Of a stretch of DNA of 64,000 bases, positions 21,911-32,621 are shown one piece after another. The notes beneath the pieces were generated by a model. It made no database searches and was not told the DNA's origin. It saw only the letters and a list, made by a program, of their open reading frames with translations. Positions within the stretch are counted from its first letter, which is position 1; each line of letters begins with the position of its first letter. The stretch is from Candidatus Methanogranum gryphiswaldense (lineage in GTDB: Archaea; Thermoplasmatota; Thermoplasmata; Methanomassiliicoccales; Methanomethylophilaceae). Position numbers and translations under genes: made by a program. The DNA lies in the NCBI GenBank assembly GCA_019262145.1, contig CP076745.1, positions 555,093 through 619,092 on the forward strand, given 5' to 3'.

Positions 21911-21985
21911 GGGCCCATAGCTTAGACCGGCTGGAGCGCCCGGCTGATAACCGGGAGGTCGTGCGTTCAAATCGCATTGGGCCCA
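21911..21985 (+). tRNA. tRNA-Ile(GAT)
   Basis: 75 bases with acceptor GGGCCCA/TGGGCCC, anticodon stem CCCGG/CCGGG around CTGATAA (anticodon GAT), and a T-arm with GTTCAAATC. Discriminator A; CCA not encoded. Its 3' end is the integration site of the 10.6 kb element: the last 12 bases plus one recur at 32609. Confidence 0.96.
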
Positions 21986-21986
21986 C
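21974..21986 (+). repeat. attL core
   Basis: Left copy of the 13-bp repeat GCATTGGGCCCAC, covering the end of tRNA-Ile, so the tRNA stays intact after integration. Confidence 0.88.
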
Positions 21987-22087
21987 TCATTTTGTTACCC
22001 AGATGTTCGTTTTTTTAACTGAATAGATTTCTTCATTGTTTTTGTTATATTTGGTTTTTATTATGCAATCTTTATTTCTCTTTTAAA

Positions 22088-22194
22088 GTTAACATGTTAA
22101 CAATATTACTATATTTTTAATATATCTGGATGTATGATTTTTATTAGAATTAATTTGTTAACTTTGAGTTAACTTTTGAAACATTTTTGTTAAC
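22088..22194. promoter_or_regulatory. Cluster of five GTTAAC palindromes beside attL
   Basis: GTTAAC occurs at 22088, 22096, 22157, 22168 and 22189 in 107 bases, with a near copy (GTTAAT) at 22210. The interval 21987-22424 has no gene and is otherwise plain AT-rich sequence. A second GTTAAC cluster lies just before the integrase. Integrase arm sites or regulator operators are the likely readings. Confidence 0.6.
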
Positions 22195-22424
22195 TTACAT
22201 CTTCTTTTTGTTAATTTTCTTTTAATTTAGTATCGTATCTAATAGATATGAAATAGAATACCCTAATTATTTATTAAACTCGAGATCAAAAATAATTTAC
22301 ACTGTGCTGTGATTTTTTAGATTTAGTTGATAGGTAAATCCAATTAAAAAAGTAATTTTTTTTTGAGATAGAGATTTTGAAAGCAATCAAAATAGCATCA
22401 TTTTATTTTTGTATTAGCTTATTT

Positions 22425-23069
22425 TTACGAAGGGGTTAATATTCTTCCATATGCGGTGCAAATATGTTCTTTTTTACAATCACATTTCCAAATATGTATT
22501 TCTGAAAATATTTTTTCGGGAGATGTTATTTCAAATTCTATTTTATTTTTACGATGTGAATATGGACAACTGAATTCTACGTTCAGAATTACTCCCAGTT
22601 CTTCAGTTTGCGATTCGTTATTGTTTGTAGATTTTAATGATGGTTTTAGATCATAAGGTAATTTACAATGATTAGCGACAATCAAAGAAATGGTTTCCGA
22701 TATTTTAAGAAATTTTATATCTTCTTTTACAAGTGCATTATGTAAATCGTTGTGGTCTCTAATCAGTAATGAAAATTTTTTTATTGTGTCTGTGTAGACT
22801 AGTGTGGGTACTTGATAAATTATTACAGTAGGTTTTGGTTTTTTTACAAGAATGCCTTTTTGTTCTAATGATTTAAAAGCTTCTTTCATTTTCTTATATT
22901 TATGTGTTGGTATTGATTGAAGGAGATCATTTTCTGAAATTTCTTTTCCACCTCCAATTCCTGCAGAGACCAATCTGCGGAAGACTAGCCACTCATAGTT
23001 ACTATATTTGGTGAGGCAATCTATTTCCCCATTCGTGATGTCTGGCCACCATTTTCTTATCTCGAGCAT
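22425..23069 (-). CDS. Winged-helix protein with a C-terminal cysteine cluster
   Basis: 214 residues. The N-terminal 85 residues (YSNYEWLVFRRLVSAG, EISENDLLQSIP, KMKEAFKSLEQKGILVKK, TVIIYQV) have the helix-turn-helix plus wing pattern of MarR-like regulators. The C-terminal part carries CPYSHRKNK and WKCDCKKEHICTAYG, which could bind zinc. Divergent from the next gene across 45 bases holding TATA-like sequences on both strands, so it may control that promoter. No specific family recognised. Confidence 0.6.
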   Translation of the reverse strand: MLEIRKWWPDITNGEIDCLTKYSNYEWLVFRRLVSAGIGGGKEISENDLLQSIPTHKYKKMKEAFKSLEQKGILVKKPKPTVIIYQVPTLVYTDTIKKFSLLIRDHNDLHNALVKEDIKFLKISETISLIVANHCKLPYDLKPSLKSTNNNESQTEELGVILNVEFSCPYSHRKNKIEFEITSPEKIFSEIHIWKCDCKKEHICTAYGRILTPS

Positions 23070-23114
23070 TCAATAACATTATATATTTTACTTATATATA
23101 GATATCTCATTACA

Positions 23115-23780
23115 ATGAGTTGTCTAATCACAATGACTAAATATAGTATATGTGATATTAGCGGTGCAGAGGCAACAGAAATGAGGACCCCTCAAGAGAT
23201 AGTAATGACTATCGCATATTCATTGAAAGATGGGAAGAAGGGAGATGAATATTCGGTAGCAGACATATCGAAAAGTACACAACTTCACTACATGACGACA
23301 AGCGATTACTTGAGTCTTATAGAGTATATCCAAGAGAATATACCAAAAATAAATAAAATTGATTCAAGGGGCAAAGCTAGAATCGTCATAATAAATGAAA
23401 TGGAATCAGACTATTCTCAAAAGGAGAAAATAATGCTAACTATGTTTGATAAGGCGGCATTCAGTAAAGATTCGGCACTTGTTATAAAAAATGCAGAAGA
23501 CTGCATAGATGCCGCCATATCTGAAAAATTAGTACTTGAGTCCATAAAGGGAAGATATTACCTTACAACTAACGGCATAATGGAAGCTGCGAAATTTGCG
23601 GAAAAGAGAGCAGAAAAAATGATGGATTTGAGTGTAAAATCTAAAAAAGAATGCCTAAATTATGAATTAGAAGATAAAGAAGAAGTGTGGCATAAGTGCA
23701 ATGACTGTTTAGAAAATGGCTACAAACAAACAGGAATTACAGATACAATACGCTGTCTTCCATCTTCTCTTGCAGCTTAA
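23115..23780 (+). CDS. Winged-helix-type regulator of the element
   Basis: 221 residues. The N-terminal 80 residues (TPQEIVMTIAYSLKDG, YSVADISKSTQLHYMTTSDYLSLI, INKIDSRGKARIVII) look like a winged helix. A second helical part and a short HKCNDCLENG cysteine motif follow. A TATA-like CTTATATATAG at about 23089 would give a leaderless start at 23115; the ATG at 23133 is an alternative. Divergent from the winged-helix gene to its left and followed after 15 bases by a DUF3467-like gene, probably one operon. Confidence 0.55.
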   Translation: MSCLITMTKYSICDISGAEATEMRTPQEIVMTIAYSLKDGKKGDEYSVADISKSTQLHYMTTSDYLSLIEYIQENIPKINKIDSRGKARIVIINEMESDYSQKEKIMLTMFDKAAFSKDSALVIKNAEDCIDAAISEKLVLESIKGRYYLTTNGIMEAAKFAEKRAEKMMDLSVKSKKECLNYELEDKEEVWHKCNDCLENGYKQTGITDTIRCLPSSLAA

Positions 23781-23795
23781 TAGTGGGGGATTAGG

Positions 23796-24113
23796 ATGGA
23801 AAATATAGAAGAAAAAAAACAACAAATAAAGAAGGGAAGATCTCAGTCGTTCTCTAAGGTATATGCAACCAATGTATTAGTCTCGGAAACTGACTCAGAT
23901 GTCAGATTGTATGGATTTAATGAAATTCTAAATATAGACGATACAGAAAAAGTAGCGATAAGCGATGGAGAATTGATATTAACATTCTCTGCGACAATTC
24001 TCCTTTACGAACAATTGAAAAAGATAGTAGAAAAATGGAATGAAACAGATAAGAAAGTGGAAATTTCAGAAGTTAGAAGAGCAACATTAGAGAATTTATT
24101 GAAAGATTTCTGA
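23796..24113 (+). CDS. DUF3467-like small protein
   Basis: 105 residues. FSKVYATNVLVSETDSDVRLYGFNEI, a short gap, then ELILTFSATILLYEQLKKIVEKW follows the DUF3467 pattern of a beta-rich half and a helix that begins after a strand. Function of that family is unknown. It lies 15 bases after the winged-helix gene, with AGG directly before the ATG. The match is by pattern only. Confidence 0.5.
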   Translation: MENIEEKKQQIKKGRSQSFSKVYATNVLVSETDSDVRLYGFNEILNIDDTEKVAISDGELILTFSATILLYEQLKKIVEKWNETDKKVEISEVRRATLENLLKDF

Positions 24114-24639
24114 ACTATATCTTAAACCCTTTAAAATTCGTAATTATTTTATTTCTTCTTGTTGATTCTGTTAAAGGTCTGAGAGAAGAACAGAGTATAA
24201 GATTTCTCTGCTCATCAATTCTATTGGTCATAATAATTTTTATTTAGGATTGTATGGCTGATCTCCAGACGAATCAGGATGTTTTCGACGTTAGTCATCA
24301 GGAGTTCGAAATTCTGTCACTTTTCTTTGATAGCTTTAGATAGCTAATATTTAAAATGGATGTCGTCGAAAGGGATTCTAGATCTAGTTTGTAAAATAGC
24401 AAAATTTCTAAAGAATCGTAACAATCCTAATGCAATCGGACATTCTTCCTTTGTGCGGTCGTCCGCTATATGGATTTAATCCAATATTATGCCCATCTCT
24501 GGAGATAGATATACATTGATATTTTTGGGAGGATTCTTCTTTTCGTAGGCAGTCTCTTTTCTCCGGATATAATGTTATCGTTTCCTCATCGTATTATTTC
24601 GGTTCTCATTTAAACTATGTCCTATTTCTTAGGTCATGC
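24114..24639. other. Gene-free stretch of the element
   Basis: 526 bases between convergent genes. The best frame is a 29-codon one (24254-24343, ATG to TAG), too short and without a convincing ribosome-binding site. The stretch leads into iteron array C. The whole interval could be a replication origin or a decayed gene. Confidence 0.5.
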
Positions 24640-24769
24640 GATATTATCGGCCCGGCCGGAATATACGACGCACACATGATGCGCATGCGCGCAGTGGCTT
24701 CTCTGCATATATGCCGATAATATCTGGGCATTATCGCTGTTTTATCGGTGTGATATCGGGGGTTTATCG
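24640..24769 (+). repeat. Iteron array C (11-bp phased TATC repeats) with flanking inverted repeat
   Basis: TATC recurs at 24721, 24732, 24743, 24754 and 24765, exactly 11 bases apart; the last four read TATCG. An inverted CGATA (24715-24719) adjoins the first. An 11-bp inverted repeat, GATATTATCGG (24640-24650) and CCGATAATATC (24714-24724), encloses 63 bases that include a GCGCATGCGCGC palindrome. Phasing at one helical turn is typical of sites bound by several copies of one protein, as in plasmid origins and partition centromeres. Confidence 0.75.
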
Positions 24770-24789
24770 ACCTTAAAATGGGTCTTAAT

Positions 24790-25194
24790 TCAGGTGGTTT
24801 CTTGTATCTTTTGATCCTGTTTCGACAGGTTGATGGCATCGTTCACGGCGTTCTCTATATCTTCAGAACTGCTTTCCTCTATCTCGGCCTTCTTAGGCAG
24901 CTGGTATCTGAAGGATATCCCTTTGAACAATGATTCTAGGTCTTGATCTCTGATTAGATCCAATTTCTCCGGCGGTAGGTATTTCCAAAGGACAGCAGCG
25001 ATCTTTATCGAATCGGCCACTATATCCGGTTTGGAACGTCCGTCCACAATGTGGATGAAGTCGATTATAACGATCGTCTCCGACGGCAGAAGATAAGCCC
25101 TCGTCTTGGCCGGTTCTTTATGTTCGATATCTTGAGAGTGCTCTGTCTCTTTGTCGTGTGCATTGTTCTTGGGATCCTCTGATCTTGTGGCCAT
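24790..25194 (-). CDS. Probable ribbon-helix-helix protein
   Basis: 134 residues. After an acidic, polar head (1-30) comes RAYLLPSETIVIIDFIHIVD and then a helix GRSKPDIVADSIKIAAVLW, matching strand-helix-turn-helix of RHH DNA-binding dimers. The C-terminal 40 residues are charged and flexible. GAGG lies at suitable spacing before the ATG. It sits between iteron arrays C (downstream) and A/B (upstream), making it a candidate binder of those repeats, similar in principle to ParR or omega repressors. The fold call is tentative. Confidence 0.5.
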   Translation of the reverse strand: MATRSEDPKNNAHDKETEHSQDIEHKEPAKTRAYLLPSETIVIIDFIHIVDGRSKPDIVADSIKIAAVLWKYLPPEKLDLIRDQDLESLFKGISFRYQLPKKAEIEESSSEDIENAVNDAINLSKQDQKIQETT

Positions 25195-25390
25195 ATCAAT
25201 GTCCTCATAATTGGTTTAGATCGTTACCGCCATGCGGTTTAGTTGTATCGATGATCGACATAACGGTAATTGTGGTCGTTTTGATCATAATATACCTATA
25301 CAATATCGTGATTGATTTTTGATTTATAATCTATATGAAATCTTAGATTTTCTTTTAAAATTTGGTTGTCGGCGGATATACCGTGTATAG

Positions 25391-25454
25391 GTGCATGTAC
25401 GCGTAATGTAGGAAAGTTTCGTTTTTCGAAACATATACGCAACTTTTATGAAAC
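25391..25454 (+). repeat. Iteron array A with upstream box
   Basis: The 24-base box at 25391-25414 matches array B's box at 20 of 24 positions, all four differences being transitions. It is followed by an inverted GTTTC (25416-25420) and direct repeats GAAAC, GCAAC, GAAAC at 25428, 25439 and 25450, spaced 11 and 11. GTTTCG and CGAAAC can form a hairpin over TTTTT. Confidence 0.7.
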
Positions 25455-25477
25455 TTTTTTAAGAGTCCCAATATCAT

Positions 25478-25732
25478 TTAAGCATCAGATATTTTGATAT
25501 GCTGGGTATCTTTTTGTTTTTCCCATCTCAAATTAAAAGAATAACTATCAACGAAACTTAATTGAACATGAAAATTAGGATATATTGACATCCATTTATG
25601 ATAACAGATCTCTGATTCTGTTAGCGACATACATTTAGAATATGATTCGAAATGTCGGTCGGCGATTATATCACGTATGGGCGCATATACGTGTAATATA
25701 GGAAGTGTCGAAAAATCGACATTTTCCGACAT
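25478..25732 (-). CDS. Doubtful 84-residue reading frame overlapping iteron array B
   Basis: The frame is open and has ATG and TAA, but its first 25 codons lie inside array B, whose sister array A has the same DNA pattern with a one-base shift that breaks the frame. The conservation there is therefore of DNA, not protein. No family recognised and no Shine-Dalgarno site is evident. Listed because nothing else occupies the stretch. Confidence 0.25.
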   Translation of the reverse strand: MSENVDFSTLPILHVYAPIRDIIADRHFESYSKCMSLTESEICYHKWMSIYPNFHVQLSFVDSYSFNLRWEKQKDTQHIKISDA

Positions 25733-25741
25733 TTTATCGAC
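25681..25741 (+). repeat. Iteron array B with upstream box
   Basis: The box at 25681-25704 resembles that of array A. It is followed by an inverted GTCG (25707-25710) and direct CGAC repeats at 25717, 25727 and 25738 (spacing 10 and 11), each followed by ATTTT. GTCG and CGAC form a hairpin over AAAAAT. The core differs from array A (CGAC against GAAAC) while the layout is the same. Confidence 0.7.
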
Positions 25742-26028
25742 ATTTTTATGTTGATTGATTTAAACACGTGGTTTAGTAAAAATACTATGCTGGGTATGAT
25801 GTTAATAATCTTTATTCTTTATTAATTTCATTGTTTGAACCGAGATAAATTCGCTATCGTACATAAATTAATTAAATTGCTTCTGGGTATTTATGATTTT
25901 AATCATATTCATATTTTTAAAATTATCAATGACAGGATTGGATTCGAATAAAAATATTGGATTAAGTTTCATTACATTAATAATTCCCTAAAAATTCTTG
26001 CTATATTTTTTCAGTATGGTAATCAGAA
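25742..26028. other. Gene-free AT-rich stretch
   Basis: About 290 bases of AT-rich sequence between array B and the double-RHH gene. No frame, hairpin or repeat stands out. Confidence 0.5.
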
Positions 26029-26523
26029 TTAGTCACATTTAATGTCTTTAACATGAGGGATTTCTCCATCATAAATACAAGGCGTAGGATAGGGATACTC
26101 TAAATCATCTATTTCTGTTCTAAATATTATGTATTCACTTAATGCATAAATTGCAAAATTTCTTACAGTTGTGTTGTCAGTATTTCCAAATAAAGGCAGG
26201 TCGAACGATCCATCATAAGCATATTCACACATTACAAAAATCTCTGTTAAAAATCCGTCTGGAATTCTAATCTGAATACTACATCCTGAACAAACATCTA
26301 ATTTAGCCCGTTCACACATTTTCTCGATGTATAATCTTAAGTCGTGGCCTGGTCCTCCGCAATACTCTATATTAAACTTATCATTTAAAAATCTTAAAGC
26401 ACATAAGAAAAAGTCAGGAACATTTGAGAACATACCCCTATCTTCGATGTACCGCTCAATCCACGCAACATATGAAGCGGGAACCGTAAATGCCCGTTTA
26501 ACGGTTTTTGTGGAATTACGCAT
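26029..26523 (-). CDS. Ribbon-helix-helix protein, possibly with two RHH units
   Basis: 164 residues. The first unit is VKRAFTVPASYVAWIERYIED then SNVPDFFLCALRFL, a strand and two helices of RHH type. A second, weaker unit may be IQIRIPDGFLTEIFVMCEYA then NTTVRNFAIYALSEYI. A cysteine pair CSGC lies between. Two RHH units in one chain would give a pseudo-dimer. Divergent from the 58-residue RHH gene across a region carrying two operator-like palindromes. Confidence 0.6.
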   Translation of the reverse strand: MRNSTKTVKRAFTVPASYVAWIERYIEDRGMFSNVPDFFLCALRFLNDKFNIEYCGGPGHDLRLYIEKMCERAKLDVCSGCSIQIRIPDGFLTEIFVMCEYAYDGSFDLPLFGNTDNTTVRNFAIYALSEYIIFRTEIDDLEYPYPTPCIYDGEIPHVKDIKCD

Positions 26524-26576
26524 AATCTGAAATCTCTTTTTCAGATATTATACCATCTAAAAAAATGTTTATAAAT

Positions 26577-26622
26577 TGTCTATTTAGACGAAATTATTTT
26601 ATACAATATTGTCGCTTTAGAC
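26577..26622. promoter_or_regulatory. Pair of operator-like palindromes between divergent RHH genes
   Basis: ATTGTCTATTTAGAC and ATTGTCGCTTTAGAC both have TGTC-6-GAC symmetry; the TGTC parts start at 26577 and 26610, 33 bases (three turns) apart. A TATA-like TTTTATAC lies between them, about 30 bases before the plus-strand ATG. Autoregulation by one of the flanking RHH proteins is the simplest reading. Confidence 0.6.
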
Positions 26623-26626
26623 AATT

Positions 26627-26803
26627 ATGGAAGATAAACGGATTTGTCCGAAATTTACTGAAAAAGAGATGTTGCAAATCGACACTATGGTTAAATCAGG
26701 ATATGGTCGGTGTCGTACAGATTTTGTTCGTAAAGCAACTATTATTTTTATTGAAAAAACGACTGAAAATACAGTTTCTTTAAAAAAGGAGAAGGGAGCC
26801 TAA
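26627..26803 (+). CDS. Small ribbon-helix-helix protein
   Basis: 58 residues, ATG at 26627 to TAA at 26801-26803. ICPKFTEKEMLQIDTMVKSG gives the strand and first helix, CRTDFVRKATIIFIEK the second helix, the standard RHH (CopG/Arc-like) layout, with a short lysine-rich tail. It is expected to dimerise and bind the palindromes just upstream. The promoter (TTTTATAC about 30 bases before the ATG) places the operators over the transcription start. Confidence 0.7.
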   Translation: MEDKRICPKFTEKEMLQIDTMVKSGYGRCRTDFVRKATIIFIEKTTENTVSLKKEKGA

Positions 26804-26905
26804 ATTCATATAACATTTAGACCAAAAAAGTCTGTTAAATGAGATAGCCAGATATAAATAAAAAATACAACAAAAACTAGATTGAAATTAGTAGGAGATA
26901 AATAA

Positions 26906-27217
26906 ATGAAACCATCACAAGTTGATACAGTCATTAGTACCTGGTTAAATCTGGGTGTAGCCAATAATTGTTCTATATCCACACTTAGTAGAGTAACTCC
27001 AGTGGATATTGCAGTATATTGCACTAAGAATAACCACCCAATGAAACCGAACAAGGCCATGAAGATCCTAAGGGAGTTGGGATTCGATGTCCTTAATGAT
27101 AGGATTTTCGGGAATGACTCGGATTTCGAGGAACGTCTGATCAAGACTATCAGGATGTTCGGTACTGATGCACAAATAAACCATTATTTAGAAGGAAGTG
27201 AAAAAAATGATAGTTGA
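26906..27217 (+). CDS. Hypothetical protein, first gene of the element's main operon
   Basis: 103 residues, mostly helical, no family recognised. PVDIAVYCTKNNHPMKPNKAMKILRELGF looks like a helix-turn-helix-type segment. AGGAGATAAATAA precedes the ATG, and a TATA-like GATATAAATA lies near 26850, so this is probably the promoter for the run of genes up to the replication ATPase at 30136. Confidence 0.6.
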   Translation: MKPSQVDTVISTWLNLGVANNCSISTLSRVTPVDIAVYCTKNNHPMKPNKAMKILRELGFDVLNDRIFGNDSDFEERLIKTIRMFGTDAQINHYLEGSEKNDS

Positions 27218-27554
27218 AAACATAGTAAGTTCAGAATCTGAAAAAATCTGTAATGAAAAAGAGAGGACAAAAATCGTTAATCTAAAGATAGACCAATCCA
27301 AAGTAAAGATGTTCATAGCGATAATGGATGGATTCAGCAAGTGTCACAATGTGAGTTTTGACGATACTATTCGGAATGAGAAAGTAGCAAACGAGATTGA
27401 GAAAGAGATAGAGGTCCTCGTCTCCAAATATTCAGTTGTTAGGAAGATGGATCCCAAGATTATACCGCAATTCATTGAACAGATCTATCCGGATCTCAAA
27501 GAGAAGATCATATCGATATCTGTTAAAGAAGAATCTGTTGGAACAGGTTGGTGA
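27207..27554 (+). CDS. Hypothetical helical protein
   Basis: 115 residues from the ATG at 27207; the start overlaps the previous gene by 11 bases. Charged and helical, with RTKIVNLKIDQSKVKMFIAIMDGF in the middle. No family recognised. It is followed four bases after its stop by an RHH gene. Confidence 0.55.
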   Translation: MIVENIVSSESEKICNEKERTKIVNLKIDQSKVKMFIAIMDGFSKCHNVSFDDTIRNEKVANEIEKEIEVLVSKYSVVRKMDPKIIPQFIEQIYPDLKEKIISISVKEESVGTGW

Positions 27555-27558
27555 TATT

Positions 27559-27765
27559 ATGGCAAAGATAGAGATAGAGATACCCGACGATATGCTGGCA
27601 CAGGCTAAATGGTATGTGGAGAACATGGACGATTATTACGATGATTTGAACGATTTCTTCATGACGGCCATAGAGAGCAATTTGGACATGTGCAACGACG
27701 AGACGATAGCGGTCAAAAAACCGTTCAAGAACTGTTTCTACGTTAGAGGAATGGTGGGAATATGA
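27559..27765 (+). CDS. Small ribbon-helix-helix-like protein
   Basis: 68 residues from the ATG at 27559, which has GGTGAT upstream; the frame itself runs back to 27436 inside the previous gene. IEIEIPDDMLAQAKWYVENM and then DDLNDFFMTAIESNLDM follow strand-helix-helix of RHH proteins, but the middle turn is acidic. Its stop overlaps the next start by four bases. Confidence 0.55.
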   Translation: MAKIEIEIPDDMLAQAKWYVENMDDYYDDLNDFFMTAIESNLDMCNDETIAVKKPFKNCFYVRGMVGI

Positions 27766-28130
27766 TCGCTGGAGATCAGGCCTTAGATACTCTTTTTGAA
27801 GAGAGGATCAACAGGATCATGGACGAGACGGATCTCGATATGGAAGATTCGGACGAGAGGACAGAGATAGTGAAAAGATTGGCCAATAAACTTTTAACAA
27901 AATGTCAGCCAGATGCAGCCCCGGGAACATGGGGGGCCGATCAATTCTATCAGTTCATGGAGGAAGAGGTCGGTAATATGGCCTATCACGTTCTTGGCAG
28001 TTTGTACGAATCATTATGTTGGCATTTGGTCGCCGAATACGATGATGGACGCGAGGATAATGAACCGTTCCACGATATGGCCATAATGATACGCGTTCCG
28101 AACGTCGAACAGTGCCGCAGGATGTTCTAA
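27762..28130 (+). CDS. Hypothetical acidic protein
   Basis: 122 residues, helical and acidic, no family recognised. It overlaps the preceding RHH gene by four bases (ATGA), so the two are coupled. The next gene starts 25 bases later. Confidence 0.55.
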   Translation: MIAGDQALDTLFEERINRIMDETDLDMEDSDERTEIVKRLANKLLTKCQPDAAPGTWGADQFYQFMEEEVGNMAYHVLGSLYESLCWHLVAEYDDGREDNEPFHDMAIMIRVPNVEQCRRMF

Positions 28131-28155
28131 GGATAAGGGAAAGGGGTGTCGATAG

Positions 28156-28353
28156 ATGGAAGGCAAGAAGAATGGAGGTCTGAAGGTAATATCGGCAAAG
28201 GTCCCGGTAAGAACATACGATGAGTTGGAAAAAACGGCCGCAGCCCTGGAGATCAACAAGAACGAATTGATCAACAGGGCTGTCAGGCTCTACTTGATGT
28301 CATGCTCACAAGCGATCGAGGCGGTCAAACCAATTAACACGAGGAAGTTATGA
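28156..28353 (+). CDS. Ribbon-helix-helix protein (CopG-like)
   Basis: 65 residues. GLKVISAKVPVRTYDELEKTAAAL then INKNELINRAVRLYLMS is a clear RHH pattern, with the usual small-residue turn between the helices. AGGGGTG lies upstream of the ATG. Four-base overlap with the next gene. Probably the copy-number or operon repressor of the replication gene downstream. Confidence 0.75.
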   Translation: MEGKKNGGLKVISAKVPVRTYDELEKTAAALEINKNELINRAVRLYLMSCSQAIEAVKPINTRKL

Positions 28354-28631
28354 CAGAATACTTTACGAACCCTAAGGATAAATTCTTTTTCGAGAAAGTA
28401 AACCCGTTAAGATACACCCAGTCATACAACGGTTCGTTTACTCCCGATGGCAAGATAATAAGACTTAGGCCAATGCTAGTTCATGTTAGATCGGACGATT
28501 CTTATTTTTGGGCACCGTGTGAAGGGTGCGGAAAGGAAGGAAGAGACCTAAAGAGGATCGTCAAAGCGAACGGTTCAAGGATCCAATATCTTTGTTCCGA
28601 GTGCAGGATCAAGGGGAGAGGGAATCAATGA
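28350..28631 (+). CDS. Small zinc-ribbon protein
   Basis: 93 residues. CEGCGKEGRDLKRIV and YLCSECRIKG give two CxxC pairs about 24 residues apart in the C-terminal half, a zinc ribbon. Coupled by four-base overlaps to the genes on both sides, so it belongs with the replication ATPase and may be an accessory DNA-binding subunit. Confidence 0.65.
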   Translation: MTEYFTNPKDKFFFEKVNPLRYTQSYNGSFTPDGKIIRLRPMLVHVRSDDSYFWAPCEGCGKEGRDLKRIVKANGSRIQYLCSECRIKGRGNQ

Positions 28632-30136
28632 TCCATCCGTCCGATGGGAGGGCGGTCTACGAGTTCGAAGAAGTGGACGGCATCGTTAATTTTGTAGAAT
28701 CGCAAACGATATCGTGCGAACATACGCCGATAAGTAGAATACCGAAAGATAGAACGGACGTATGGGATTATTATTCTGCACACTGTTGGAAATTGCCGGC
28801 AAAGATCAATCCGCATCAAGATTGGAGTGGCATTTACATCAACCATGAGAATCCAGAAATGATACTTGGGTGGATCTCCGAAATAACAGGAAAGATCCTA
28901 AGGTTATTGGATAGAAGCATGTATTTCAAGGACGAAAGGCACCCTGCCCTTATCGTCAATTTCATTTTCAATACTTATCTCAAGGATGCTTTCGATTATG
29001 CGCCTCGCATAATCCTCACCGGCGGAACGGATTCGGGAAAATCCAGATTGCTAGAGATATTAGGGGAATTGAGTTATCACGGATTCCTCATTGTCAGGCC
29101 GACATTCGCCATAATGTTCAGAATGATTGATGCCTATAATACGACCCCAATAATCGACGAGGCCCAGAGATTGAGGGAAGATGCACGCAGGGATCTTGAG
29201 GACATATTTCTAAGCGGAACGCAAAAGGATGCAATGATACCTAGATGCAATAACAATTCATTGAAACCTGAGACTTTCAAGGTATATTCTCCGCTAGTAA
29301 TGAGCAATAAAGCAGGAACATTTACAGCTGAGGATATCGAAAATAGGGGATTCAGGATCAATCTGATACCAAATAGGATCAAAAAAATAGATCCCCTTCT
29401 GGATAAGGACGGATTCTTGGAGATCCGTACTGAACTGTACTCATTGCGTGCACTCTACAAGATGCATCCGGAATGTTTCGGATTGAAGGATCTTATAAAA
29501 GAGGCGATACACGAACTTACAGAGACCGATGATCAGGGGAACATGATCACAGATTTCATAAGGACCGATGGGGAAAGAGGCCGTCTAAAAAACAGATCGT
29601 TGCAGATAGCCATAACATATTACACCCTTTCAAAATTAACAGGCACGGAATCCGATATACTTTCATTGCTGACAGAGGAAGACAGGAACAACATGGAAAG
29701 GAACAAGGATACCAAAGAAGGTGCGGTATTCCGTGCGTACATCCAATGCTGTAAGGACAAATCAGAAGATTATCCCCTTTACGGATATCTTGATATCATG
29801 ACGTCCGTCAGCTCCAAAGAGATCCAAGAAAAATACAATTTGAATCTCTTGGAATCCGGAAATCAAAAGACCACTTTGGACCAGATAACCGCCAATAGCG
29901 TGTCCAGGACAATGAAGGACATAAGCCTTGAGATGTCCTATGATGCTGGAAAGGGAAGAGGTGGCCACAGGAACGGTGTCAAGATCGTCAAAAATCTTGA
30001 CGAATACATCTACATGAACGAGGACCGTTACGCCACCGAGATAGAATCTGAAATTTTAAGGGATCTCCACAGTAGAAGATCATTGAAAAAGTTAACTTCA
30101 AAGTTAACAGATAATGAGAAGTTAGCCGAAAGTTAA
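28628..30136 (+). CDS. P-loop ATPase, probable replication helicase/initiator of the element
   Basis: 502 residues from the ATG at 28628, which overlaps the previous stop by four bases. Walker A GGTDSGKS (132-139), Walker B TPIIDEAQRL (about 173-182), and a sensor-like YSPLVMSNKAG near residue 220 mark an AAA+/superfamily 3-type motor; LENRGFRINL-type residues follow. The C-terminal 150 residues look helical with a winged-helix-like end (GHRNGVKIVKN). Plasmid and virus replicases of archaea have this plan. No polymerase or primase active site is visible. GTTAAC sites fall inside its last codons. Confidence 0.7.
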   Translation: MIHPSDGRAVYEFEEVDGIVNFVESQTISCEHTPISRIPKDRTDVWDYYSAHCWKLPAKINPHQDWSGIYINHENPEMILGWISEITGKILRLLDRSMYFKDERHPALIVNFIFNTYLKDAFDYAPRIILTGGTDSGKSRLLEILGELSYHGFLIVRPTFAIMFRMIDAYNTTPIIDEAQRLREDARRDLEDIFLSGTQKDAMIPRCNNNSLKPETFKVYSPLVMSNKAGTFTAEDIENRGFRINLIPNRIKKIDPLLDKDGFLEIRTELYSLRALYKMHPECFGLKDLIKEAIHELTETDDQGNMITDFIRTDGERGRLKNRSLQIAITYYTLSKLTGTESDILSLLTEEDRNNMERNKDTKEGAVFRAYIQCCKDKSEDYPLYGYLDIMTSVSSKEIQEKYNLNLLESGNQKTTLDQITANSVSRTMKDISLEMSYDAGKGRGGHRNGVKIVKNLDEYIYMNEDRYATEIESEILRDLHSRRSLKKLTSKLTDNEKLAES

Positions 30137-30197
30137 CATATTGAACAAAATACAATCCAGATGTGTTAAAAATACGATAAAATGGTAACTTGTTAAC
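30091..30197. promoter_or_regulatory. Cluster of GTTAAC palindromes before the integrase gene
   Basis: GTTAAC at 30091, 30103, 30132 and 30192, with near copies GTTAGC (30121) and GGTAAC (30184). The cluster covers the end of the ATPase gene and the integrase promoter region, repeating the motif found beside attL. Confidence 0.6.
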
Positions 30198-30219
30198 TTT
30201 TACAGAGGGGAGAGAAAGA

Positions 30220-31242
30220 ATGACCAGTAGAAAGCCTTCGGACACGGCAGAGATCAAGGATTACAATGTCGATCTTCGCAGGGTAAGATTAGGTGCTAGG
30301 CCATTCAAAGCAGGGATACGCTATTATGAAGTAAAGAAACAGGCATATCTTACAGACACTACGATCGAAGAGAATGTCAGGAAGCTTTACTATTTTGCCG
30401 ATGTATTCAAGGACCTCAAAGCTCAGGGATTGGCCAAGACCACTGATCCCAGACACATAGGGGAATCAGAGATCGAGGCGTTCATGATTTTCATGAAGAA
30501 GAGAAAATTACAGAACTCGACCAAGAAAAAATACATGAGCATGTTGGATAGTTATTTGGGATTCTGGGAGAATCATATAATCCTGAACATGAAGAAACAG
30601 AACAAGTTCGTTTCAATGTCTAAAGGGGGATCTCACATACCAACATACATCGATGAGGACGATCTTCGTACGATTTTCGGGCATATTGAGAATTATCCAG
30701 GATATAACGGAATTATAATTCGTGGATTTTTTTCATTGATCTTCGGTATCGCCGGAAGGCCTAAGGAGATTATAGGGGCGTTGACATCGGATATGGAGAT
30801 AGAGAATGAGCAGTTTTATATTAGGCATCCTAAGGGAGAAGATTCATGGGGAATGCGTGAATGGATCTCCATTACAAGGAAGGACATGATACCAAAATTG
30901 GAAAGGTTTTTGGAAGAAAGGAAGGCCCATCTTGAGAGTATAGGATGTCAATCTGATTTCTTGTTTGTTAATCCAAGGACAGGTCAGCCATTTTCACTTA
31001 AGACCATAAGAGTGATAAAAGAGAATATTGAGAATGAACTGGATATAGATTTTAAACTCAAGGAATTCAGATCCTCATATGCTACTATTACGTACAAGCA
31101 TAACAAGGGAATGAAGGATGCGATCAGTAAGCAGCTTAGACATCTTCAGCCAAGTACAACCGATAAATATTACATAGCCTACGAGAGGAAGCAAGCATCA
31201 AAAGAATTATCGGATGAATGGAAAAAATCTAAAATAGAATAA
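30220..31242 (+). CDS. Tyrosine recombinase (integrase) of the element
   Basis: 340 residues from the ATG at 30220, with GAGGGGAG upstream; the frame itself begins at 30190. The N-terminal 130 residues form the SAM-like arm domain. Catalytic residues visible: arginine in IAGRPKEIIGAL, arginine in KEFRSSYATITY (the usual box II histidine is replaced by lysine), histidine in LRHLQPSTTDKYY, and the tyrosine nucleophile there. It should catalyse integration at, and excision from, the tRNA-Ile 3' end. The gene is not split by integration, and it lies about 1.4 kb inside attR. Confidence 0.88.
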   Translation: MTSRKPSDTAEIKDYNVDLRRVRLGARPFKAGIRYYEVKKQAYLTDTTIEENVRKLYYFADVFKDLKAQGLAKTTDPRHIGESEIEAFMIFMKKRKLQNSTKKKYMSMLDSYLGFWENHIILNMKKQNKFVSMSKGGSHIPTYIDEDDLRTIFGHIENYPGYNGIIIRGFFSLIFGIAGRPKEIIGALTSDMEIENEQFYIRHPKGEDSWGMREWISITRKDMIPKLERFLEERKAHLESIGCQSDFLFVNPRTGQPFSLKTIRVIKENIENELDIDFKLKEFRSSYATITYKHNKGMKDAISKQLRHLQPSTTDKYYIAYERKQASKELSDEWKKSKIE

Positions 31243-31326
31243 TTGTAACCCATCAAATTAGGTTATTTATGTTACTGTTTGGGCTATATTAAATAATTGA
31301 AATGACGATTGGAATGAGATTTCAAT

Positions 31327-32436
31327 ATGACAGATGATATCGATTTTACCAGTTATTTTAAAAGGCCTTTAGAGTCAATTACTGATTCAGATGTCTCTGA
31401 ATTTGTAAATAATTTTTCGGAAGGTCTTAATATCGAATACAAATCTATTGAAATATTAAAAAAGCCCTCAGAATTGTCCAATACAATTTCTGCATTCGCA
31501 AATTCTTCTGGAGGGATGTTATTTATTGGTGTTTCAGAGCCTGGTGAAGGTAATGATAAAAAAGAAAGAAAAATCGAATATACTAGTAACAAGACGCATA
31601 GTAAAGATTGGCTTTCTCAAAGTATTGTTGACAAGGTACAGCCAATTGTTAGAGGCATCAGAGTTTTACAGATATTTGACGTTAGTAAAGAAAAATGGTT
31701 TTTTTTGATATGTGTACCAAAAAGTGAAAATATACCACACATGACAAATAATAGGTATTACCATAGAATTGAAGCAAGATCAGTACCAATGGAACACTAT
31801 CATGTTTCAAATTGTTTTAATATGGTACAAAAACCAGTATTAATACCTTGTTTTTCTGTTAATAAAAAAGATAATGGTGATATGGAAGTAACATTTAAAA
31901 TTTCAAATGAAGGAAAAGCCATTTGTAAATGGCCATTTGCAAAAGTTGAATTTTTTGGTACTTTAATACATACTAATTCGTTGACTAAGTTTAATAATGA
32001 ATTTGGGTTGAGAGCTGATAGAAATCCACCATATATGCAATTATGTACGGGTAATATGGTTTTGTACCCTGAAACAACTCAAGACGAGTTTAGAATTACG
32101 CTTTTTAAATCATCGTACGTGCTTGTAAGAACAACATTAGCTGGTGAAAATTCGCCTTCTAAAGTTTATTTTTCATGTATTGATTCGATGCGCATTCCAT
32201 TTGGTAAAGGACTTATTTCGGTCGAACAGCCTAGACTAAAAATATTTCAAATATATGATGTAAAAGAATTAGAAAAGGAATATGGACTTTTATCTAAAGA
32301 TTCAAAAACAATAGATTCATTTTGTGAAATTTATTTTACTGGTACCATTCAAAGTAATTTATTTGCGGATTTGTCAACTGAAAAGAAAGAATTACTCAAA
32401 AAGATGATGCTAGATCAATTTGGTATAAAAAAATAA
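31327..32436 (+). CDS. Schlafen/AlbA_2-domain protein, cargo of the element
   Basis: 369 residues. The N-terminal 150 residues have the AlbA_2 pattern: EGLNIEYKSIE, AFANSSGGMLFIGVSE and NRYYHRIEARSVPM. The C-terminal 200 residues are beta-rich and unfamiliar. Related proteins include nucleic-acid-binding regulators and some defence proteins. Codon use is markedly more AT-rich than in the integrase next to it, suggesting a separate origin. TATA-like GGCTATATTAAAT lies about 45 bases upstream, so it has its own promoter between the integrase and attR. Confidence 0.8.
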   Translation: MTDDIDFTSYFKRPLESITDSDVSEFVNNFSEGLNIEYKSIEILKKPSELSNTISAFANSSGGMLFIGVSEPGEGNDKKERKIEYTSNKTHSKDWLSQSIVDKVQPIVRGIRVLQIFDVSKEKWFFLICVPKSENIPHMTNNRYYHRIEARSVPMEHYHVSNCFNMVQKPVLIPCFSVNKKDNGDMEVTFKISNEGKAICKWPFAKVEFFGTLIHTNSLTKFNNEFGLRADRNPPYMQLCTGNMVLYPETTQDEFRITLFKSSYVLVRTTLAGENSPSKVYFSCIDSMRIPFGKGLISVEQPRLKIFQIYDVKELEKEYGLLSKDSKTIDSFCEIYFTGTIQSNLFADLSTEKKELLKKMMLDQFGIKK

Positions 32437-32608
32437 TTTTAATTTTATCTGTTTTCATTATATATTTTAAAAAAGTTGTTTTGATTGTTTAACTTAAATA
32501 ATGTATAAATTTGATTAATAATAAGTTTTTTTTTGATTATTGGATTAATTTTAAAAGATAGTTATTAGAGTTATTTTTTTTCTATCTGGCTTTTGTTTTG
32601 TTCAATGT

Positions 32609-32621
32609 GCATTGGGCCCAC
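32609..32621 (+). repeat. attR core
   Basis: Right copy of GCATTGGGCCCAC, preceded by TTCAATGT where the tRNA has TTCAAATC. Confidence 0.85.

Follow-up and report, generated by a model that had tools for sequence, protein, structure and literature searches.

The window considered here, a stretch of 64,000 nucleotides (G000:C1:555093–619092) from the genome of Candidatus Methanogranum gryphiswaldense, which is available as a single contig of 1.52 Mb, contains a 10.6-kb insert at the 3' end of a tRNA-Ile gene. The target gene, tRNA-Ile(GAT), is intact and lies at positions 21911–21986 on the plus strand (ARAGORN; Rfam tRNA, 63 bits). Its last 13 bases, GCATTGGGCCCAC, make up the core of the left attachment site (attL, 21974–21986, +) and recur as an exact direct repeat at the right attachment site (attR, 32609–32621, +), with the match between the two sites lengthening to 22 nt at 86%. 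The GC content of the insert is 0.356, as compared to 0.433 for the rest of the window. Three relatives show the site without the insert: in G001, of the same genus, homology to the left flank (71% over 1515 bp) runs precisely as far as the end of the tRNA, and approximately 540 bp past this point the right-flank genes of the window resume; in G002, also of the same genus, the tRNA adjoins a right-flank gene; and in G006 the tRNA is joined directly to the sequence which in the window follows attR (77% over 48 bp). These empty sites, together with the flank and repeat data, indicate that the insertion is real and precise, and the direct repeats at tRNA-Ile that an earlier note, made from the sequence alone, had reported are thereby confirmed. 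A second stretch elsewhere in the host genome (G000:C1:21995–22078) is 85% like the tRNA-Ile region and perhaps represents another tRNA of the same kind.

The 15 open reading frames (ORFs) of the insert were taken as genes; all 15 products were searched against Pfam, and 10 of them against PHROGs and PADLOC. The right-hand part of the element carries a core operon of a regulator, a zinc-ribbon-like protein, an AAA+ ATPase and an integrase, all on the plus strand. The integrase gene (int, 30220–31239) encodes a tyrosine recombinase, as the earlier note had it (PF00589, E 1.4e-9, with an XerA-like match), and is located directly downstream of the gene for the 502-aa AAA+ ATPase (28628–30133), a proposed initiator-helicase assigned from its alignment and from the fold of a relative; both frames are open. 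The ATPase gene is preceded by a pair of small genes, the first of which (28156–28350) encodes a ribbon–helix–helix (RHH) regulator of the CopG type, above the Pfam cut-off for RHH_1 (4.3e-5) and 45% identical over 53 aa to the RHH protein encoded at the same place in locus L114 (3e-11). The product of the second (28350–28628), which overlaps the ATPase start, is zinc-ribbon-like in having two CxxC motifs, the part of the earlier assignment that stands, but belongs to no Pfam family. The claim of RHH-rich regulation likewise holds for the 28156–28350 product, but two further candidates are weaker: the product of 26627–26800 (+) is a small RHH-like protein below the RHH_8 cut-off (E 2e-3) which resembles one in L068, and the small acidic product of 27559–27762 (+) matches no family above cut-off and is RHH-like by eye only. 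With its direct repeat and intact tRNA, its empty site and its own open-frame integrase, the insert has the hallmarks of a site-specific integrative element at a tRNA gene.

The notable part of the window element, and an addition to what the earlier note had described, is a pair of inverted box arrays. Array L (22078–22200, −) consists of five GTTAAC boxes around a CCAGAT motif and lies 100–210 bp inside attL; it is an inverted copy of array R (30075–30225, +), in which GTTAAC boxes surround CCAGATGT and which occupies the gap between the ATPase and integrase genes, overlapping the presumed int promoter. The window has nine copies of the sequence AAGTTAAC, none of them outside the element (expected, 1.68; such a count in 0 of 100 shuffles), and these sites form two clusters, at 22086–22196 and at 30089–30199. 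The clusters align as inverted copies over approximately 148 bp with a score of 46, which was reached by none of 286 windows of the element and none of 500 shuffles. The possibility that CCAGAT followed by TTAAAAATA is a plain promoter motif, that is a TFB-recognition element with its TATA box, was considered and rejected, as most relatives have the CCAG without an adjoining TATA-like run (by eye), and the motif is therefore more than a promoter.

Relatives of the element are found across the order of the host, which the named relatives (Methanomethylophilaceae and Methanoplasma) identify as Methanomassiliicoccales, in agreement with the earlier note's suggestion of a probable methanogen. ATPase relatives were detected in 19 of 101 relatives by single-sequence search. 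A profile search gave 24 of the order's 147 genomes, and for the phylum the figure was 37 out of 389 genomes sampled, with partial matches beyond the order. Of 26 ATPase loci examined, the window included, 21 have the family integrase directly downstream; among the remaining ones, two are unclear (L061 because the contig stops there, L116 because its frames overlap), L066 has a downstream frame missed by the integrase profile, L119 has a serine recombinase (PF00239, 5.5e-42), and in L120 no integrase was found. The targets include genes for tRNA-Ile, Arg, Ser, Pro, Ala, Gly and Lys, and the core operon, from the RHH gene through zinc ribbon, AAA+ ATPase and array to the integrase, is seen again, whole or in part, in elements at other tRNA genes. 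The trio of RHH protein, zinc ribbon and ATPase singled out by the earlier note is present in L114, with an orthologous RHH and a CxxC protein, and L117 looks alike by eye; orthologous RHH genes were not found in most loci. A tRNA-end core is present at both ends in 13 elements, the window included, with repeats of 13–34 bp (those of 13 and 14 bp, in L063, L118 and L060, being the least secure) and sizes from 3.7 kb (L064) to 22.6 kb (L068). Two of the 13, L123 and L124, carry a different, unrelated helicase. The occurrence of the ATPase–integrase pair at many tRNA genes in the same order supports the proposal that this lineage has a new family of integrative plasmids or satellites. Pattern-based scans of IMG/VR, limited in reach, gave no relative for the window ATPase or for alignments A2, A3 and A4, and neither did a genome-contig scan with the window ATPase alone; the family is apparently undescribed in the literature and databases searched, a comparison that did not extend to Medvedeva 2023 (viruses of methanogens). 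Some family members are irregular: L069 (4647–12541) has a pair of integrases and successive core repeats, two in number, of the tRNA-Ala type, which probably reflect the stacking of two family elements at one tRNA-Ala, L059 (783–2895) has two integrase genes face to face in one element, and decaying copies are seen in L067, L112 and L113, where the ATPase is split in two frames, and in L060, where the integrase is split.

In the relatives, too, tandem boxes surround a CCAG/CTGG motif in the gap between ATPase and integrase. Their sequence is GTTAAC in most relatives, with GTGAAC/T in L060, L113 and L114, GTTACC in L064, GTTAAG in L069 and GTTAG in L063; boxes are 8–12 bp apart, and the spacing from box to CCAG is, by eye and with exceptions, near 16 or 27 bp. 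A strict pair, defined as [AG]TTAAC N2-4 [AG]TTAAC, was sought in the 644,860 bases of 42 loci and was found in the gap upstream of int in L053, L055, L056, L057, L058 (twice), L059, L065, L112, L115 and L124, in the attachment-side arrays of L057, the window and L110 (twice), and at no other place. With one mismatch allowed in the hexamer, arrays were not separated from background in most loci, and the claims made here rest on the exact tests. On both sides of the core, the CTGG/CCAG motif is seen by eye in the window, L057, L058, L064, L069 and L053/L110. Counting box clusters, a far-end array is present in nine of the 13 two-ended elements (the window, L053/L110, L058, L064, L069, L112/L140, L060/L143, L124/L136 and L065/L139), with the box nearest to the core at 80–171 bp in eight of them and at 459 bp in L139; the arrays, often inverted copies, usually fall 80–315 bp inside the end. 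Four of the nine (L136, L139, L140 and L143) come from ten continuations examined after the far array had been predicted; six of the ten are without a cluster, and three of these six hold the far-end repeat. A second array also exists in L057, L114 and L055, which do not have two repeats within one contig. Inverted similarity within the element exceeds that of every other window of the same element in five of six elements and all 500 shuffles in four of six, with the two array copies of L064 being 98% identical over 63 bp. The paired arrays are a conserved cis-architecture of the family.

As for the protein with which the arrays go, there are loci in which the two core genes part company. L123 and L124 have the family integrase (3.7e-115 and 9.5e-120) downstream of an ATPase undetected by the family profile, and they keep GTTAAC/ATTAAC boxes and GCCAGATG despite the unrelated helicase; in L119, where the family ATPase is followed by the serine recombinase, an array was not seen. 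On these few cases the arrays would belong to the integrase, and they are probably its control or arm site. Against this stands L066, where an array-like stretch lies beside the frame missed by the integrase profile.

The ATPase, in turn, is recognizable by its motifs and has no family assignment. In an alignment with 13 relatives, G137/K138 of Walker A and N239/R240 are invariant and D177/E178 of Walker B nearly so; searches of Pfam, PHROGs, NCBIfam, PADLOC and PDB sequences yielded no match that passed the cut-off or was convincing. The predicted structure of the window protein (pLDDT, predicted local distance difference test, of 51) was too poor and was not used, and the ATPase of L076 was modelled instead (mean pLDDT 67.9); since its AAA core (residues 143–228) is poorly modelled, the fold evidence is support rather than proof. 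This model resembles an MCM homolog (Z 9.4), Cch of the staphylococcal cassette chromosome mec (SCCmec) and Rep of the Staphylococcus aureus pathogenicity island (SaPI) SaPIbov1 (Z 6.5), and contains, at residues 372–484, a winged helix like that of the origin recognition complex (ORC; Z 7.0 over 87 residues). A Foldseek search at E 0.001 found no match in the PDB, and the best viral fold match was an 862-aa protein (3.2e-9), of the same length as ORF2 of Methanobacterium virus PhiF3. The replication ATPase of the earlier note is thus backed by motifs and a relative's predicted fold, but by no Pfam or NCBIfam family, and on the model an initiator-helicase role is proposed. A near-identical plasmid or virus family was sought and none was found: the best plasmid match, on unnamed7 of Haladaptatus salinisoli, covers a third of the ATPase at 27% identity (E 4e-7), and the best phage match, PhiF3 ORF2, is 22% identical (E 3e-2), both being remote, partial similarities compared by the ATPase alone.

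The explanation favoured here, with moderate confidence, is that the window holds a plasmid-like mobile element, integrated in the genome of a Methanomassiliicoccales methanogen, with arrays that are probably bound by its integrase. The integrase would insert and remove the element at the tRNA core, the ATPase would act as initiator-helicase and replicate the excised circle, and the RHH and zinc-ribbon proteins would regulate the core operon. These steps follow established knowledge of the respective families, while the role of the arrays is one that we infer: array L, approximately 140 bp inside the far attachment site, and array R, upstream of int, may both be bound by the integrase (the less sure step), perhaps with a helper. 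Such binding could bring the two ends together for recombination, and at the int-side array it could shut off the int promoter. A more specific version, for which the odds seem to us somewhat unfavourable, is that the mirror-image, concertedly evolving arrays at the int promoter and the far attachment site form a long-range synaptic complex that couples int expression to end joining, an arm-site-like archaeal intasome with boxes re-coded in each element; this would be a kind of recombination control not described before in Archaea. Mobility is suggested by a relative, G018 (Candidatus Methanoplasma glyptotermitis, named through L076), in which contig C2 has tRNA-Pro followed by the left arm of the element, and contig C54 has the int end joined via the same core to the same left arm. 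This arrangement is the one expected when an integrated copy coexists with a circular or tandem form, so that this metagenome-assembled genome contains a junction of one of these two kinds; the ends of C54 do not overlap, and a closed circle was not seen.

It has to be said that a number of observations speak against this explanation. Neither excision nor a circle was seen for the window's own element, and the fold support for the ATPase is that of the L076 model with its poor AAA core. By exact-hexamer count, no more than 12 of 21 loci have the gap ranking within their top 5%, and five loci examined for boxes upstream of the integrase (L030, L032, L034, L036 and L038) have none. At the far end, two of the 13 two-ended elements (L063/L135 and L118/L141) have no array, those of L123/L137 and L068/L111 are weaker and seen by eye only, and the two arrays of L058 are not significantly similar. 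Array R, moreover, is separated from the attachment core by the length of the int gene (approximately 1 kb or more) in relatives and by 2.4 kb in the window, which is far for a classic arm site.

A different origin of the element itself, for which we see some but not much chance, is a viral one: it would be the satellite, or a decayed derivative, of some methanogen virus, pleolipovirus-like or other, and would be moved in helper virions. VP4-bearing proviruses of Methanomassiliicoccales have been published and, as far as the available part of PMC10919331 goes, pleolipovirus-like proviruses share with the window insert the character of small tRNA-integrated archaeal elements with an integrase. 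Larger relatives with the same ATPase–integrase module also carry a Zot-family ATPase (L057, 13270–14478, PF05707, E 4.2e-8, with relatives of this Zot-like ATPase in L053 and L068), and these three may be proviruses that share the module. The window element differs from such proviruses in that none of its 15 proteins has a predicted membrane segment and no VP4 candidate is seen, although no VP4 profile was used; VP4 was not identified in L057 either. As the earlier note had stated, no capsid or conjugation gene is recognized: Pfam on all 15 proteins and PHROGs on 10 gave no capsid, terminase, portal or packaging family, and Pfam on all 15 gave no relaxase or transfer ATPase of an integrative and conjugative element.

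The main rival to integrase binding as the role of the arrays is a SaPI-like replication origin. The SaPI Rep initiator binds repeats that flank the origin next to rep, and the boxes could correspondingly be iterons bound by the C-terminal winged helix of the ATPase, with the second copy as a duplicate origin. Array R does abut the 3' end of the ATPase gene, the boxes differ between elements, and the L076 model combines the ORC-like winged helix with the resemblance to Rep and Cch. We nevertheless hold this unlikely: very similar boxes stand beside the unrelated helicase of L123 and L124, they are absent after the ATPase of L119, and the kept place of the far array beside the attachment site is left unaccounted for. 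SaPIs and other phage-inducible chromosomal islands (PICIs) as well as SCCmec (structures of Rep and Cch, 8tch and 5dgk) are alike in combining an integrase with an AAA+ initiator-helicase, which in the window element is a proposed one, and repeats beside the helicase gene; the window element differs in being archaeal, in having no recognized packaging-interference or capsid genes, and in that its arrays seem to follow int.

Less likely still, in our estimate, the arrays are operators through which an element-coded RHH repressor controls int, in which case the attachment-side copy would be a relic or serve for looping. RHH dimers occupy tandem boxes of 6–8 bp, and a box spacing of 8–12 bp, as found here, suits tandem dimers of the MetJ/CopG kind; RHH-like proteins are encoded just upstream of the ATPase in the window, L114, L055 and L115 (below the curated cut-off in the last three), and the int-side array overlaps the presumed promoter. 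Orthologous RHH genes were, however, not found in most loci, whereas the array is present, and the conserved placement of the far copy is again not accounted for. Finally, a stranded genomic island that is no longer mobile, for which the AT-rich cargo and the visibly broken relatives mentioned above might be taken to speak, is improbable in view of the open int and ATPase frames, the exact core and the presence of both arrays.

The family is best filed as a variant of the tRNA-integrating archaeal elements. Arm sites of the lambda and Tn916 type are repeated protein sites inside the element ends, and the self-regulated int of KplE1, in the part of PMC2951348 available, likewise has repeated protein sites inside the ends and a site overlapping the int promoter; the arrays of the window family differ from all of these in that they are long, inverted and made of many boxes, and in that one of the two is removed from the core by the length of the int gene; their binding role is putative. 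The archaeal tRNA-integrated plasmids and elements treated in the accessible portion of PMC8371274 are alike in having a tyrosine integrase, a tRNA 3'-end core and an intact tRNA restored, and the window element departs from them by an int that is not split by integration, an ATPase without a Pfam model and the paired arrays. According to the same portion, characterized archaeal integrases work without directionality factors, and the terms "arm-type" and "arm-binding" have 0 occurrences in the text of that paper. If the arrays are indeed integrase sites, this would bear directly on the statement, as it appears in that portion, that no directionality or helper factors are needed. Methanomassiliicoccales are methanogens of guts, rumen and wetlands for which few mobile elements were found in the literature, and a compact tRNA-integrating family, whose smallest member (3.7 kb) has little beyond ATPase, integrase and two arrays, offers a candidate vector backbone as well as a clean model of archaeal integration.

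The remaining genes of the window element are mostly of unassigned function. Between int and attR lies an AT-rich gene (31327–32433, +) for a Schlafen-type protein with an AlbA_2 domain (SLFN_AlbA_2, PF04326, E 3.1e-15), which occurs in no other locus of the family comparison and is best seen as cargo; another cargo protein, of the DUF3800 type, is common to L053 (16231–16986, the copy with the Pfam match) and L059 (5774–6346). On the left-hand side, ORFs without an assigned function are found at 22425–23069 (−; no Pfam family above cut-off), 23115–23777 (+; one CxxC), 23796–24110 (+; DUF3467 below cut-off, E 1.1e-3), 24793–25194 (−; 134 aa) and 26032–26523 (−), and three more at 26906–27214 (+), which is the first in a close same-strand gene run, 27198–27551 (+) and 27762–28127 (+). 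PADLOC, run on 10 window proteins, named no defence system and gave one weak match only (Cas11a, E 0.018, for the 24793–25194 product). Within the nearly gene-free stretch at 24.1–26.0 kb, a 47-nt repeat (79%) is present at 25368–25414 and 25658–25704, and after each copy a short inverted repeat can be made out by eye; this is a candidate for an origin or for a hairpin with a regulatory role in the window element.

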